Part shown: positions 6,054 to 27,338 of the stretch, one piece after another
Layout of the letters: each line of letters opens with the position of its first letter
Position numbering within the stretch: position 1 is the stretch's first letter
Virus record (IMG/VR): IMGVR_UViG_3300050015_001120
Location: 1 to 27,338 of that record
From: a virus
Direction: 5' to 3' (one strand)
Length of the DNA: 27,338 nt
Notes under the pieces: model-generated
What the model saw: the letters and a program-made list of their open reading frames with translations, nothing else
Told to the model about the DNA's origin: nothing
Database searches by the model: none
Translations under genes and position numbers: made by a program

Positions 6054-6206
6054 GCTTCCCTTCGAAAAATCTTTAAGAAATCTTAATCGCCAAAATTATA
6101 AGATGATCTTGTTCCTTGAAACGAGGCAATCTTGGCGCAAAAATGCGGCTTGACTTATAAAAGAGTTTTGGCGATGCTGTTGCTAAGCAATAATCAATAA
6201 AAAAGC
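6054..6206 (+). promoter_or_regulatory. Intergenic region before the exported-protein cluster
   Basis: This 153-nt gap separates the terminase module from the MltG gene and is the likely place for a promoter of the 6207-8890 unit. It holds a perfect 10-bp inverted repeat, ATCGCCAAAA (6086-6095) and TTTTGGCGAT (6166-6175), 70 nt apart, and a small hairpin CGCA-AAAA-TGCG near 6137-6148. A TTGACT (6150-6155) is present, but the matching -10 (GATGCT, 6173-6178) is poor. The AAAGGTCG octamer found in other gaps is absent here. No terminator with a T-run is seen after 6053. Confidence 0.4.
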
Positions 6207-8920: not shown

Positions 8921-8949
8921 AAAACCTCTCCCAACCAAGAGGTTTTTTG
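8921..8949 (+). terminator. Rho-independent terminator after exported-protein cluster
   Basis: A perfect 9-bp stem, AAAACCTCT (8921-8929) / AGAGGTTTT (8938-8946), with an 8-nt loop and a T-run (8943-8948). It lies 30 nt after the stop of the secreted protein and separates the phage operon from the accessory cassette. Confidence 0.85.
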
Positions 8950-8997
8950 TTTGGAATTCAATTTGACTATATGGATAAGAAAATGCTTTATTAAAAC

Positions 8998-9041
8998 ATC
9001 AAGGGCAGAAGCTCCGCCAACCCGGAACTGAAGCCCTTGAT
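8998..9041 (+). other. Hairpin at left edge of accessory cassette
   Basis: A perfect 9-bp stem ATCAAGGGC (8998-9006) / GCCCTTGAT (9033-9041). The 26-nt loop can itself pair TCCG/CGGA around CCAACC. A weak promoter-like TTGACT (8963-8968) lies upstream. On the minus strand the stem is followed by GTTTTAAT, so it may be a terminator read leftward; on the plus strand the T-tract is weak. It could also be a short regulatory leader. The rest of 8891-9056 shows no gene. Confidence 0.45.
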
Positions 9042-9056
9042 TTCGTTTGCTGAAAT

Positions 9057-9085
9057 TTGACAAGAACGAATAATGGTGATATGGT
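9057..9085 (+). promoter_or_regulatory. Sigma70-like promoter for NUDIX-like gene
   Basis: TTGACA (9057-9062), 17-bp spacer, TATGGT (9080-9085). It is directly upstream of an AGGAGG Shine-Dalgarno sequence (9098-9103) and the TTG start at 9111, giving a very short leader. This argues against translation starting at the upstream in-frame TTG (9057) or ATG (9081). Confidence 0.7.
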
Positions 9086-9110
9086 ATATAATAAAATAGG
9101 AGGCAAGAAA

Positions 9111-9692
9111 TTGGCTAAAGATATAGTGGTGCTTCCCGAAAAGAATCTTGGGAAGGTTAAGGAATTGGTGGAGAAAAAACATCAAGTCGCAGCAACAATA
9201 GGATTGTTTGTTGCTCCCATACGTGTAACGGGAGATCGTGTCGAAGTCCTTGTTAGGAGAAGGACCGCAAAGGATTCCCTGTACGATGTTGATTTATCGG
9301 GGAAGAACGAGGCTATCGGAGGTGCTCAGTCATATAAAGACCTCACTAATGGCTACTTCGCTTCGATAATTGGTACTCTTTGCAGGGAGGCTATGGAAGA
9401 GGCTGGCTTAGACCTTTCAAACTGGAATCCTGGATTCCCCCTCGTCATGCTTCCGGCGCAACTGAGTAAGGAAGACGGAATGAATGATTTTGCCTTCATT
9501 GTGCCAATGAAGTGGAGCGATGACTATGGGACGCAGGTGTACTCTAATAAGCTGGCCAGCGGAGCAGTAAACTGGTATGGAGAAGACGATCTGACTAATC
9601 TTAACAAGCCAGTGGTATCTCTTCGTACCCGAGTCCTGCTTCTTCAAGCCATAGAGTACGTTCATATGGTAGAAGCGAAATACCCTTCTTGA
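9111..9692 (+). CDS. NUDIX-like hydrolase
   Basis: A 193-residue protein with the second half of a NUDIX box intact ('REAMEEAGLDL', matching R-E-U-x-E-E-x-G-U), preceded by 'AIGGAQSYKD' and about 15 extra residues where the standard G-x5-E part should lie. The catalytic glutamates binding Mg are therefore present, but the box is stretched or degenerate. NUDIX enzymes hydrolyse nucleoside diphosphate derivatives; the substrate cannot be predicted. The TTG start is chosen because a perfect AGGAGG lies 7 nt upstream; the in-frame ATG at 9081 lies inside the promoter. It has its own promoter and a long hairpin overlapping its stop codon. Frequent AGG/AGA arginine codons and the strong SD differ from the surrounding phage genes, consistent with a separately acquired cargo gene. 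Confidence 0.75.
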   Translation: MAKDIVVLPEKNLGKVKELVEKKHQVAATIGLFVAPIRVTGDRVEVLVRRRTAKDSLYDVDLSGKNEAIGGAQSYKDLTNGYFASIIGTLCREAMEEAGLDLSNWNPGFPLVMLPAQLSKEDGMNDFAFIVPMKWSDDYGTQVYSNKLASGAVNWYGEDDLTNLNKPVVSLRTRVLLLQAIEYVHMVEAKYPS

Positions 9693-9751
9693 GGCATTTC
9701 TAAATGAATCATCTATTTTTTTGATGTTCAAATGGAAATGCCTTTTAATTT
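9692..9751 (+). terminator. Long imperfect hairpin terminator after NUDIX-like gene
   Basis: AGGCATTTC (9692-9700) pairs perfectly with GAAATGCCT (9735-9743). Inner pairing continues imperfectly (ATGAA...CATC with GATG...TTCAAAT) around a T-rich loop, and TTTAATTT follows. The stem begins on the last base of the stop codon. It probably insulates the NUDIX-like gene from the promoter that follows. Confidence 0.65.
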
Positions 9752-9759
9752 ATAAAACC

Positions 9760-9788
9760 TTGACAACGTTTAATAACTATAGGATACT
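9760..9788 (+). promoter_or_regulatory. Sigma70-like promoter for the overlapping ORF pair
   Basis: TTGACA (9760-9765), 17-bp spacer, GATACT (9783-9788). A Shine-Dalgarno sequence GAGGTGA (9816-9822) lies 6 nt before the ATG at 9829. Confidence 0.75.
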
Positions 9789-9828
9789 TTCAGGAGCAAG
9801 ATTTTCTTGTAAATTGAGGTGAGATAGT

Positions 9829-10068
9829 ATGCCGTATGTGGTAAATTCAGAAGGGGCAACTCGGGAAATGGTCGAGCATCAGGACCTTAAGGGAACAGCG
9901 TTGGAGCTGATGAATAGGATCGGCCTATTGGACGAAGGAAGCGATGGAGAAGATCTCTCTTGGCTCTGTGATGCCATTATAAGAAAGTATGGCCCCGTGG
10001 AAAGCTTGATAACAACTCTTGCGACAAAAAAGCCATGGAAAGGGATGATGGCGAGCTGTTGGCAATAA
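9829..10068 (+). CDS. Hypothetical protein, possible upstream part of a frameshifted product
   Basis: A 79-residue acidic, helical protein ('TALELMNRIGLLDEGSDGED', 'LSWLCDAIIRKYGPVESLIT') with an excellent promoter and a GAGGTGA Shine-Dalgarno sequence. No family recognised. Its 3' end overlaps the next ORF by 34 nt, and the frame relation is -1. Codons 66-68 read ACA AAA AAG, so they contain A_AAA_AAG (10026-10032), the classic dnaX-type -1 slippery heptamer in the correct phase. Slippage would join residues 1-68 to the next ORF to make about 217 residues; without it, translation ends 12 codons later. An indel splitting one gene is the alternative explanation. Confidence 0.65.
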   Translation: MPYVVNSEGATREMVEHQDLKGTALELMNRIGLLDEGSDGEDLSWLCDAIIRKYGPVESLITTLATKKPWKGMMASCWQ

Positions 10069-10081
10069 CCGCAAAGCTTGC
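10026..10081 (+). promoter_or_regulatory. Candidate -1 ribosomal frameshift site
   Basis: A_AAA_AAG at 10026-10032 is in the zero frame of the upstream ORF, and the -1 frame is open from there into the downstream ORF. A possible stimulatory stem GCGAGCT (10051-10057) / AGCTTGC (10075-10081, one G-U) lies 18 nt downstream, farther than the usual 5-9 nt. No clear Shine-Dalgarno-like stimulator was seen upstream. The heptamer phase is the strong part of the evidence; the stimulators are weak. Confidence 0.45.
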
Positions 10082-10481
10082 AAAGGCATTATATGTGCCT
10101 GCGGGAGCAAGTATGGCTAAAAAGAAAGAGCCAGGGATACACAAGGATTTCGTGACCGCCGTAGTCCAAGTGGTGTTGTTCCACTGCTCTATTCCGAAGA
10201 ATGCAAGCACCACTCTCGCGGACTCTGTCAGAGCGGGATACAAGGGGATCAGCGATGAATCCGCCGCCAAGTTCTTTATATTTGAATGGATCAAGGATGG
10301 ATCGGCAACAAGCAAAGAAGCGCGCAAAGAAGTGCTCGCCGGCAATTATGCAGGCGCTTGGAAATTTGCCAACACTTGGCTCGGGAAATTTGGCTATGAG
10401 CGAGCTGTGCCGGAGGAAATATCGCTTAGCGATACCAGCTATGCAACCATAATCAGCGAACGGCCGGTAGAAGAAAGGTGA
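10035..10481 (+). CDS. Hypothetical protein, possible downstream part of a frameshifted product
   Basis: A 148-residue protein not recognised as any family. It has a basic segment ('MAKKKEPGIHKDF' from residue 27), a hydrophobic strand or helix ('VTAVVQVVLFHC'), and a helical C-terminal half with aromatic residues ('AAKFFIFEWIKDG', 'YAGAWKFANTWLGKFGYER'). The first ATG (10035) has no Shine-Dalgarno sequence, which is out of character in this cassette. The ATG at 10113 has GGGAG 5 nt upstream and is a reasonable independent start. Alternatively it is expressed as the second half of a -1 frameshift product with the preceding ORF. Its stop codon lies within a Rho-independent terminator. Confidence 0.65.
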   Translation: MERDDGELLAITAKLAKALYVPAGASMAKKKEPGIHKDFVTAVVQVVLFHCSIPKNASTTLADSVRAGYKGISDESAAKFFIFEWIKDGSATSKEARKEVLAGNYAGAWKFANTWLGKFGYERAVPEEISLSDTSYATIISERPVEER

Positions 10482-10502
10482 GCAAATCCACCTTTTTATT
10501 TT
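10474..10502 (+). terminator. Rho-independent terminator overlapping stop codon
   Basis: A perfect 7-bp stem AAAGGTG (10474-10480) / CACCTTT (10489-10495) with an 8-nt loop, followed by TTATTTTT. The TGA stop of the preceding ORF (10479-10481) is part of the stem. Confidence 0.85.
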
Positions 10503-10516
10503 TGGATGCGATGCTA

Positions 10517-10545
10517 TTGATAACCTTTTTTGTTTTGTGTATTAT
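10517..10545 (+). promoter_or_regulatory. Sigma70-like promoter, upstream of a pair
   Basis: TTGATA (10517-10522), 17-bp spacer, TATTAT (10540-10545). It lies 71 bp upstream of a second, stronger promoter serving the same short ORF. Confidence 0.55.
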
Positions 10546-10578
10546 CTATCCATAATCTATTTTTAAACAGTTCTTTGG

Positions 10579-10616
10579 GCGTCATAGTTGACAAAAATCA
10601 AAATATGACGCATAAT
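10579..10616 (+). promoter_or_regulatory. Sigma70-like promoter with overlapping operator-like inverted repeat
   Basis: The promoter is TTGACA (10588-10593), 17-bp spacer, CATAAT (10611-10616). A perfect 8-bp inverted repeat GCGTCATA (10579-10586) / TATGACGC (10604-10611), with half-sites 25 bp apart, brackets the -35 and reaches the -10. This is the layout of a repressor operator. The binding protein is unknown. The spacer also contains AAAATCAAAATAT (10594-10606), repeated at the next promoter. Confidence 0.7.
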
Positions 10617-10636
10617 TGAAATGGAGGAATTGATGA

Positions 10637-10792
10637 ATGAAGCAACTCGGAAAATATCACCTATGCGAAGGGATAAACAAGAAACGCGCCAAATGGGAGC
10701 CAAGACTGCTCTATAGTTTTATCACAGGGACTATCTGCATTGACCCCACGTTCGTTCCGGGCGCTTTGATAGATGAATCCGTAACCGTCTAA
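10637..10792 (+). CDS. Small 51-residue protein under operator-like promoter
   Basis: A short ORF with a GGAGG Shine-Dalgarno sequence (10623-10627) 9 nt before its ATG, a strong promoter just upstream and a perfect terminator downstream (10822-10860), so it forms a complete monocistronic unit. The product has a basic N-terminal part ('MKQLGKYHLCEGINKKRAKW') and a more hydrophobic C-terminal part ('LLYSFITGTICIDPTFVPGA') with two cysteines. No family recognised. An overlapping 27-residue ORF from ATG 10633 (stop 10714-10716) has SD spacing of 5 nt and is an alternative use of the same SD. The transcript could also act as an RNA. Confidence 0.5.
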   Translation: MKQLGKYHLCEGINKKRAKWEPRLLYSFITGTICIDPTFVPGALIDESVTV

Positions 10793-10821
10793 TTGCTTTC
10801 ACTTATGGGCTTTATGCCTGC

Positions 10822-10861
10822 CTCTCGAACTTACTTTTCCCATAGTTCGAGAGTTTTTTTA
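10822..10861 (+). terminator. Rho-independent terminator after 51-residue ORF
   Basis: A perfect 10-bp stem CTCTCGAACT (10822-10831) / AGTTCGAGAG (10844-10853), with a 12-nt loop and T7 (10854-10860). An alternative pairing TATGGG (10804-10809) / CCCATA (10839-10844) would compete with its base, so conditional read-through is conceivable. Confidence 0.9.
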
Positions 10862-10879
10862 TTGCGATTGTTTGAATTA

Positions 10880-10907
10880 TTGACATCAGAACAGGACTTG
10901 CTAAAAT
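10880..10907 (+). promoter_or_regulatory. Sigma70-like promoter for candidate structured RNA
   Basis: TTGACA (10880-10885), 16-bp spacer, TAAAAT (10902-10907). The 13-mer AAAATCAAAATAT (10903-10915), shared with the 10588 promoter, overlaps the -10 and the probable start of transcription. Confidence 0.65.
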
Positions 10908-10913
10908 CAAAAT

Positions 10914-11041
10914 ATCAGACAGTATAGCTTGACGGCGTTCCGATTTCGGAACTAAAAGTTACGGGGCTACGACTTCTGTCATCAACAGCCGTTTTACGCG
11001 GCGAAGATTGATGGCTGAAGTGGTAGCCCTTTTTTGTTTTA
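10914..11041 (+). ncRNA. Candidate structured small RNA or portal-gene leader
   Basis: About 120 nt between a promoter and a U-tailed terminator, with no ORF. Stem 1 is GTTCCG / CGGAAC with an ATTT loop (about 10938-10953). A large composite hairpin follows: GGGCTAC, ACTTC, CATCAA and GCCG pair in order with CGGC, TTGATG, GAAGT and GTAGCCC (about 10965-11029), ending in TTTTTTG. It matches no RNA family I can name. The portal ATG lies only about 20 nt beyond the T-run, so it is either an independent small RNA or a conditional leader controlling the structural operon. Confidence 0.55.
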
Positions 11042-11054
11042 TTCACCCCAACAT

Positions 11055-12920
11055 ATGGCGGAAATAACGGTTAATCAAATTGATCAAAATAAAACTCCGC
11101 CAAGCGAGGTCTATTCTCCCGATGCCGCGGAGCGGGCGCTTGTTGAAAAATGGAAAAAGCGATTCACTCGCGCCGACAATTTCCTGCGGCCTTACCGCGC
11201 CAAGTGGCTGCGGATGTACAAGCTCTACCGCGCTTATCAGGAAAAAACGAATTACGCGTATCAGACGCGCTTGATGCCGCCAATCGCTTTTGAAATTATC
11301 GAAACCGTGGCTTCGCGCCTGGCCACGGCAAAGCGCAAAACCCGCATCTTGCCGCGCAATAAAAAAGACGCAATTTCAAAATCGATTCAATCATGGGACG
11401 ACCTCGTGAATTACGATTTCGACACGGTGAAGATTGGAAAAAAACTGCCCAAATGGCTCAAGTCGTCGACGATGTACGGCAACGGCCTTGCCAAAGTAAC
11501 CTGGCTTACCGATTCCAGCATTGACTACGACGATCCGTTTCTTACCATCTGCGACCTATGGGACATCTTGATTGCGCCCGAAACCGAAGATTTGCACGAA
11601 GATTGTCCTTGGCTGATACATCGGATATTAAAATCAAAAGATCGGATCGAGCGGGAAGAGAAAGCCCGCGGCAACGACGCGATTTACAAAAATCTGAATT
11701 TCGTCGAGGCCAAGCAAGCCGATGATTGGAAAAAAGAACGATACGACGTGAATCTGAAAAAGATGGGTCAAATTCAAAGCGTCGAGGCCCAGGGAAGCGA
11801 AGGCGCGGTCATTAAAGTTTCGGATGATAAATACGAGCGGGAAAAACAAGTGGAGCTGTGGGAGTGCTGGGATTACGAAGAAGGCAAACTCGTTACCATC
11901 GCCAATAAAGAAGTTTTGATAAGAAACGATGACAATCCTTATCAAAGGGTAAACAGCGGCCGGATTTTCATAAACCTGCCCGATCACGAACTCAATTGGG
12001 AATTCTGGGCCGTGGGTCATATCGAGCCCGTCGAAACCACGATTGTGGAAATCGCGGATCTGCGCAACCAGCGGATGGACGATGTGATTCTCATGCTCGA
12101 CCCGGTGATAAAAATCCGCAAGGATTCGGGGATTTCGAAAAACGATATCATTTTCGCTCCCGGGGCGAAATGGGAACTGCGCAAAATGGACGATGTGCTG
12201 GTGGAGCGTTTGCCAGACATTAGCTTGATGGGAACCGATGAAGAGAAAGCTCTCCGCGATGAAATCGAAAGAACGCTGGCGATCTCGGAATATGTCCAAG
12301 GAATGCCCAAGTCCGCCCAAGAACCGCTGGGCAAAGTGGAAATGCTTATCGGCCAAACCAATCTCCGATTAAGTTCGCTGTCGCAAAATCTTTCAGAATC
12401 ATTGACCCAGCTGGCGAATATTCTTGTGGAAATGAACCGCGAGTTTATCGGCCAAAACAAATTGTACCGGCTGGTCGGCGATGATGTCGGTTTCAAAGAA
12501 TTCACCACTGACGACAAGGAAGTGAAGGTTGACGCGGTGGTGCAGGTTGACCCGATAGTGCCGCCGGATCAGGAAACGCGCTTGAACCAAGCATTCCTTC
12601 TCTACGACAAATTCGTCGCCGAAGACAAACCCGATCCGGCCAACCCAATCGAAACCGCGCAATGGCGGAAGCGCAAGCGATTCATTCAAGAAATGATTCT
12701 GGAGGAGCTTGGCAAAGAAGCGTACAAAGCGGTGATTTTAGGAGAATCTGAAAACATTGCGGCGGAAACAAATATCGCGCCTCAAGCGAATCCGGCTCCG
12801 TCGCCGCAAATCGTAGCTCCGCAACCGCCACCCTCGGCGGAATCAAATCAACAGCCGGGATTCCTCGGGAAAATCCTTTCCAAAATTCCATTTATCGGGC
12901 AGGGTCAATCACCGGTTTAA
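11055..12920 (+). CDS. Portal protein (P22-like)
   Basis: A 621-residue protein that would form the dodecameric ring at the capsid vertex. The N-terminal region ('FTRADNFLRPYRAKWLRMYK', 'YRAYQEKTNYAYQTRLMPP') is the helical start typical of P22/T7-type portals. The wing and stem region includes 'STMYGNGLAKVTW', 'FLTICDLWDILIAPE' and 'PVETTIVEIADLRNQRMDDV' leading into 'MLDPVIKIR', a common portal signature. The C-terminal 60 residues are Pro/Gln/Ala-rich and end in a short hydrophobic helix. The length is close to but shorter than P22 gp1 (725 residues). I start at ATG 11055 ('caacatATG', no Shine-Dalgarno sequence); an in-frame TTG at 11034 lies in the terminator T-run. It is the first gene of the structural operon. 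Confidence 0.88.
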   Translation: MAEITVNQIDQNKTPPSEVYSPDAAERALVEKWKKRFTRADNFLRPYRAKWLRMYKLYRAYQEKTNYAYQTRLMPPIAFEIIETVASRLATAKRKTRILPRNKKDAISKSIQSWDDLVNYDFDTVKIGKKLPKWLKSSTMYGNGLAKVTWLTDSSIDYDDPFLTICDLWDILIAPETEDLHEDCPWLIHRILKSKDRIEREEKARGNDAIYKNLNFVEAKQADDWKKERYDVNLKKMGQIQSVEAQGSEGAVIKVSDDKYEREKQVELWECWDYEEGKLVTIANKEVLIRNDDNPYQRVNSGRIFINLPDHELNWEFWAVGHIEPVETTIVEIADLRNQRMDDVILMLDPVIKIRKDSGISKNDIIFAPGAKWELRKMDDVLVERLPDISLMGTDEEKALRDEIERTLAISEYVQGMPKSAQEPLGKVEMLIGQTNLRLSSLSQNLSESLTQLANILVEMNREFIGQNKLYRLVGDDVGFKEFTTDDKEVKVDAVVQVDPIVPPDQETRLNQAFLLYDKFVAEDKPDPANPIETAQWRKRKRFIQEMILEELGKEAYKAVILGESENIAAETNIAPQANPAPSPQIVAPQPPPSAESNQQPGFLGKILSKIPFIGQGQSPV

Positions 12921-27020: not shown

Positions 27021-27338
27021 ATGGATACAATTAAAAAAATCTGGAAAGGATCGCCAAACTTTGCCGCAGGCAGGAAAGTGTTTAAACCGGAAGCCGTGGT
27101 GATTCACATAATCGACGGCTCGCTGGAAGGGGCGGATTCGTGGTTTGCCAATCCCATCTCCCAGGTTAGCGCGCATTACGGGATCGGCAAAAACGGGGAA
27201 GCGCACCAATGCGTGAAAGAAGAAGATACCGCCTGGCACGCGGGCCGGGTTGATAACCCCAGCTGGAATCTTATAAAACCGAATATAAACCCAAATCTCT
27301 ATACCGTTGGTATTGAGCACGAGGGCAATTCCAGCGAT
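27021..27338 (+). CDS. N-acetylmuramoyl-L-alanine amidase (endolysin), cut by window end
   Basis: An open frame from ATG 27021 to the last base (106 codons, no stop). The sequence is an Amidase_2/PGRP domain: 'FKPEAVVIHIIDGSLEGADS' with the first zinc His, 'NPISQVSAHYGIGKNGEAHQ', 'DTAWHAGRVDNPSW' and 'NPNLYTVGIEHEGNS', all family landmarks in order. The second His and the Cys ligand should lie beyond the window. It follows the XhlA-like gene by 5 bp, so it is most likely the lysis endolysin, distinct from the virion-module amidase at 17365-19005. Start 'aaaaaacATG', no Shine-Dalgarno sequence. Confidence 0.88.
   Translation, partial: MDTIKKIWKGSPNFAAGRKVFKPEAVVIHIIDGSLEGADSWFANPISQVSAHYGIGKNGEAHQCVKEEDTAWHAGRVDNPSWNLIKPNINPNLYTVGIEHEGNSSD

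Follow-up and report, generated by a model that had tools for sequence, protein, structure and literature searches.

Phage morons, as far as the portions of the reports that we draw on describe them, are complete transcription units of foreign composition which are inserted between genes that neighbour each other in related phages (Juhala et al., 2000, cited in PMC6316719; PMC2629481). A moron site in lambdoid phages is described in part of a further report as adjoining the late promoter (PMC4104026), and P2-like phages are presented, in the section consulted, as having a small locus of high turnover between conserved genes with cargo of the restriction, reverse transcriptase and toxin-antitoxin type (PMC9122126). 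We analysed a virus record of 27,338 bases from IMG/VR (IMGVR_UViG_3300050015_001120, the whole of which is referred to as the window) and propose that positions 9049-10892, in front of the portal gene, represent a three-unit moron cassette that a Patescibacteria phage gained at a hotspot for cargo. From the sequence comparisons given below we put the probability of this reading at roughly 0.78. As in phage morons, the insert lies between genes which are adjacent in a relative (L002, the empty site), its units have predicted promoters and terminators of their own, and its composition is unlike that of the core. It differs from them in that three units stand in tandem, the genes are unassigned and the carrier is a Patescibacteria phage, and in that Shine-Dalgarno (SD) starts occur within a phage whose other genes lack SDs. 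The arrangement of the cassette is of a known type, and its genes are foreign.

With the portal protein as query, 17 related virus loci were retrieved. One of these, L002, is 7,040 bases long and has 91% identity to the window as far as position 9048 and 94% from position 10893 onwards; the approximately 17 bases between the two flank matches form an empty site. Because L002 matches both flanks but lacks the block, the foreign piece is placed at about 9049-10892 on the plus strand, with borders that are good to approximately 10-15 bases. The preliminary description of this DNA had proposed an island reaching from 8950 to 11045. The insertion holds, and the ends were drawn too wide: L002 also contains 8950-9048 and 10893-11045, including the RNA that follows the 10880 promoter, and 10893-11045 is found in part in L003, L004, L005, L013, L029, L030 and L031. 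Alignment of related phages, which had been proposed as a way of finding a clean insertion before the portal, yielded the empty site in L002, and the opposing case, relatives that carry the block at the same site with core-like composition, was found at none of 39 related loci (15 loci repeating the same contigs having been removed beforehand). It is quite improbable that the block is ancestral and that L002 lost it, as opposed to a gain in the window; the direction of the change cannot be read from one pair of records and the present outgroups are approximately 35% divergent, but the block is absent from all 39 related loci and is foreign in composition. An assembly chimera of unrelated DNA is barely credible, even for a metagenomic contig with a block that occurs in no other record searched, because both flanks are collinear and match L002 across the ~17-base gap, so that two independent false joins at one point would be needed. 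A transposon or integron was also considered and rejected: the four cassette proteins gave no match to a transposase or integrase family (Pfam, PHROG and NCBIfam), and repeats are only short and chance-like. The loosely similar TTTG..TTGACA stretch that is seen at both ends of the insert is too weak for a target duplication. The block is not the late operon's own control either, as L002 retains the promoter and the RNA without it.

The codon and tetranucleotide comparison of the block with the rest of the phage, put forward in the preliminary description, finds a foreign composition on both measures. Scored by core usage, the codons of the block taken together reach -0.064, lower than 28 of the 29 core open reading frames (ORFs), the single ORF below the block being a fragment at 27022 in the wrong frame. 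For tetranucleotides, the distance of 0.394 exceeds that of all 110 core sub-windows (maximum 0.290). The earlier observation that core start codons lack an SD is borne out as well: with a cut-off of at least 4 nt, an SD precedes all three leading cassette genes and none of the 26 core starts examined (Fisher p 0.0003, with the caveat that the TTG start at 9111 was preferred on account of its SD).

The insert consists of three units, each with a TTGACA-type promoter, an SD start, one or two genes and a terminator, as follows (all on the plus strand).
9057-9085, promoter of unit 1, TTGACA-17-TATGGT (consensus sequence)
9098-9103, SD of unit 1, AGGAGG, 7 nt before TTG 9111
9111-9692, gene 1, ORF of 193 aa, second half Nudix-like with a degenerate Nudix box (weak alignment)
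9692-9743, terminator-like hairpin of unit 1 (predicted)
9760-9788, promoter of unit 2, TTGACA-17-GATACT (consensus sequence)
9816-9822, SD of unit 2, GAGGTGA, 6 nt before ATG 9829
9829-10068, gene 2a, orphan ORF of 79 aa, no family match
10026-10032, A_AAA_AAG in the frame of gene 2a, candidate frameshift site (sequence motif)
10035-10481, gene 2b, ORF of 148 aa, or of 122 aa if begun at ATG 10113, which follows GGGAG; related genes in two Patescibacteria genomes
10472-10497, terminator of unit 2 (predicted hairpin)
10517-10545, alternative promoter of unit 3, TTGATA-17-TATTAT (weaker site)
10588-10616, promoter of unit 3, TTGACA-17-CATAAT (consensus sequence)
10623-10627, SD of unit 3, GGAGG, 9 nt before ATG 10637
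10637-10792, gene 3, orphan ORF of 51 aa, no family match
about 10822-10860, terminator of unit 3, 10-pair stem and T7 (predicted hairpin)

The three SDs, reported before at 9098, 9816 and 10623, all lie where they had been placed, 6-9 nt before the starts. TTGACA promoters occur at 9057, 9760, 10588 and 10880 with spacers of 16-17 nt. The strict pattern TTGACA-N15-19-TANNNT has three copies in the whole window, all within 8950-11045, where 0.41 are expected, and three copies were reached in none of 100 shuffles. The promoters and terminators previously noted in the block are real, and the rightmost of each belongs to the phage core and not to the cassette. Self-contained expression, which had been suggested for this site before the portal, agrees with the predicted promoter, SD and terminator of each unit and with predicted 5' leaders of 14-34 nt. 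Each unit would use a sigma70-type promoter, an SD and a terminator of its own to start transcription, to start translation and to end the transcript, so that the cassette could be expressed outside the phage programme, such as in a lysogen.

The site itself is variable among related phages; the place between the terminase-linked genes and the portal had been described before as a common one for inserted cargo. In relatives with both ends seen, the distance from terminase to portal varies between 14 bases and 7.2 kb. Cargo between the last upstream gene and R1, a conserved leader RNA directly upstream of the portal gene (see below), is present in seven of nine phages with contents differing in each, and L002 and L004 have none; the nine are the phages with R1, namely eight strong matches (L030 and L031 counted once) and the weak match L012. 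The cargo is as follows.
L003, C5 methylase and SNF2 helicase
L005, C5 methylase, NgoFVII-type restriction enzyme and Vsr
L012, NYN
L013, N6-methylase with HSDR_N and others
L029, Gp49-like plus HTH_3 pair, which we take to be of the HigB/HigA type
L031, C5 methylase and reverse transcriptase (a search of L031 for the direct repeats of a diversity-generating element gave none)
window, the three units of 9049-10892

These contents mark the site before R1 and the portal as a putative accessory or defence hotspot. Like the P2-like locus, it holds different cargo of such types at one place between conserved genes; it differs in phage group and in its position before the portal, and the cargo of the window is unassigned. 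The site would act as an insulated gap, with the upstream operon ending in a terminator and the portal operon starting from its own promoter and leader RNA, so that different phages could fill it with different cargo without disturbing either side. Because the cargo of the siblings at the same site is of the defence type, we regard the chances as even that the orphan cassette genes serve host protection or phage competition, a function deduced from position alone. Most Patescibacteria and most of their phages have not been cultured, and gene regulation and competition in these phages are little understood. Metagenomes could be mined in a simple way for candidate defence genes with a cargo site that is bounded and has a conserved RNA at its right edge. 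Without an empty-site comparison, however, promoters and SDs found at a site of this kind should not be taken for a single island. In L009, two ORFs on the minus strand (8992-9728), both with SDs and one response-regulator-like, lie just before the portal leader and form further cargo in a second subgroup of phages.

Several observations weigh against a moron cassette with a defence role. The only empty-site record is the 7-kb L002, and expression of the units is predicted from consensus sequences alone. The transcript start predicted for unit 3 from the 10588 promoter nearly coincides with the SD, so that this unit may in fact be transcribed from the weaker site at 10517-10545. None of the four cassette proteins matched a Pfam, PHROG or NCBIfam family or a PADLOC family, so that no gene has a function recognisable from family searches and no known defence system was found. 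Searches with genes 1 and 2b gave no relatives in IMG/VR and no tblastn match in phage records, and gene 1 gave none in genome contigs or in plasmid records, where it was the only gene searched. Among the ORFs in the cargo of L003, L005, L012, L013, L029 and L031, only 2 of 23 have an SD of at least 5 nt (counted by eye from listings; two antisense L003 ORFs at 1831-2719 were excluded as likely spurious and short dubious ORFs were kept), and this count does not support the SD as a general mark of hotspot cargo.

The nature of the cassette genes was examined further. Gene 1 has two weak matches among 379 Patescibacteria genomes, with E values of 0.004 and 0.009 per genome that alone could be chance. 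The better match is an ORF whose motif suggests a Nudix protein, and the second half of gene 1 aligns to it around LCREAMEEAGL. The full Nudix box is GX5EX7REUXEEXGU. Like Nudix hydrolases, gene 1 aligns in this part and keeps REAMEEAGL; it differs from them in lacking the first half of the box, with its first G and E, and in having no Pfam match. Gene 2b has a relative at an E value of 2e-10 in one of the 379 genomes and another at 0.004; a search with an alignment, run on 86 genomes of that order, identified it in two, one of which had served to build the alignment. AlphaFold without alignment gave a mean predicted local distance difference test (pLDDT) score of 41 for gene 1 and 48 for gene 2b, and sequence searches of the PDB yielded no lead. 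Unit 2 consists of two small overlapping ORFs with A_AAA_AAG in the right frame, and a -1 shift at this motif would fuse gene 2a to gene 2b. The motif occurs at 2 of 6035 core codon positions, which gives a chance of approximately 1% for the doubly open stretch of 31 codons. That unit 2 encodes a toxin-antitoxin-like pair or a single frameshifted protein is nevertheless unlikely, given that no family matched and that both relatives of gene 2b are single genes without the extension.

The strong SDs and the foreign composition could alternatively indicate an island from an SD-using donor, its signals being a relic of the translation habits of that donor. The core genes in the window comprise a terminase, an MltG-type gene, two secreted-type proteins, the portal and an SU10-type capsid gene. 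Since the nearest terminase relatives in genomes (among 11 loci) sit in Moraniibacteriota and Doudnabacteria assemblies, at 83% identity, we infer a host among the Patescibacteria. In the Moraniibacteriota and Doudnabacteria genomes an SD of at least 4 nt precedes 20% and 18% of first-ATG starts versus 16% and 14% of internal ATGs, and one of at least 5 nt precedes 7/55 and 9/93 genes versus 5.4% and 4.8% of controls. A third genome, G004, which contains L020, has an SD of at least 5 nt at 4/36 genes versus 1.1% of controls and an intact anti-SD tail, GGATCACCTCCTTTC, which was not found in the other 16S loci examined. Because the genomes of this likely host group are SD-poor and the anti-SD tail of G004 is intact, SDs are probably readable in the host group, yet a minority signal. 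In favour of an SD-using donor, the related phages L009 and L023 have SDs at 43% and 54% of first-ATG starts, about half of their genes (all the SD fractions in this paragraph are rough, coming from simple longest-ORF calls on part of each genome). Against it, both relatives of gene 2b carry strong SDs, one in the genome G454 and one in G223, where an SD of at least 5 nt at 7/111 genes equals the internal-ATG control; furthermore, no donor sequence was found. The claim that the signals were kept from an SD-using organism does not stand as a necessity: an SD-using donor species is not needed to explain the predicted SDs of the cassette, and we consider such a donor a possible but doubtful source. 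No paper on SD use in Patescibacteria phages was found in the open-access literature searched, and SD terms were not found in the text of PMC10746230.

The moron-like cassette is flanked by conserved core features, as follows (all on the plus strand).
8921-8946, terminator-like hairpin ending the upstream operon, also present in L002
8998-9041, RNA hairpin E1, immediately left of the insert, folding z -3.4
10880-10907, promoter before the portal leader, TTGACA-16-TAAAAT, conserved in L002
10925-11039, leader RNA R1 with terminal hairpin and U tract, conserved, directly upstream of the portal gene
11055-12920, portal protein gene, from a family match, without SD

R1 is a less ordinary part of the locus than the cassette. 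Its folding z is -6.8, and on eight sequences 29 pairs are 93% formed, of which 9 have changed on both sides; when the pairing is slid by 1-3 columns, formed pairs fall to 38-49% and double-sided changes to 0-2. A model search of 40 sources gave strong matches (>85 bits, including the eight training sequences) solely directly upstream of the portal, in the window, L002-L005, L013, L029 and L030/L031, and weaker matches behind the portal in some other phages. The exact R1 core pattern matched six virus contigs, all already in the R1 group, and a loose pattern scan gave no model match among 80 returned loci. In all nine phages a promoter-like site lies 18-26 nt upstream of R1 with a score of 10-11 of 12, which random stretches of the same loci reach in 0-3%. 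An analogous hairpin with U tract, R2, is located just upstream of the portal in all 11 second-subgroup loci examined (L006-L009, L011, L015, L018, L023-L025 and L041); it consists of GCCTAACGAA, followed by a GGGGCTTAGG stem and the U tract, and its 5' strand is pairable with sequence in and behind the U tract. Rfam gave no match for the R1 or R2 loci searched, and no paper on an RNA before the portal gene of Patescibacteria phages was found in the open-access literature searched.

In the window only ~17 bases separate the U tract of R1 from the portal start. The virion operon, if read from the 10880 promoter, must cross this terminator-like structure, which suggests that R1 may act by attenuation or antitermination and offers a candidate late-gene switch in Patescibacteria phages. 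The nearest working analogue is the put RNA of HK022, described in the part of the source consulted as an RNA of two stem-loops that lies immediately downstream of a phage promoter (PMC9378689). R1 is likewise a structured RNA just downstream of a promoter; it differs in being longer, in lying before the virion operon and in ending itself in a terminator-like hairpin, and the likeness drawn here is one of structure. Only tentatively do we suggest that R1 and R2 form a new leader-RNA family that switches the virion operon by terminator-antitermination, and that the insulated gap preceding this switch turns the site into a defence hotspot. In L003, L012 and L013, a hairpin-rich, pseudoknot-like and terminator-ended stretch lies between R1 and the portal start, occupying roughly 110 bases before it. 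On the left side of the insert, E1 is kept in L002 and, with compensating changes, in L005 (~6068-6120), behind the secreted-protein gene.

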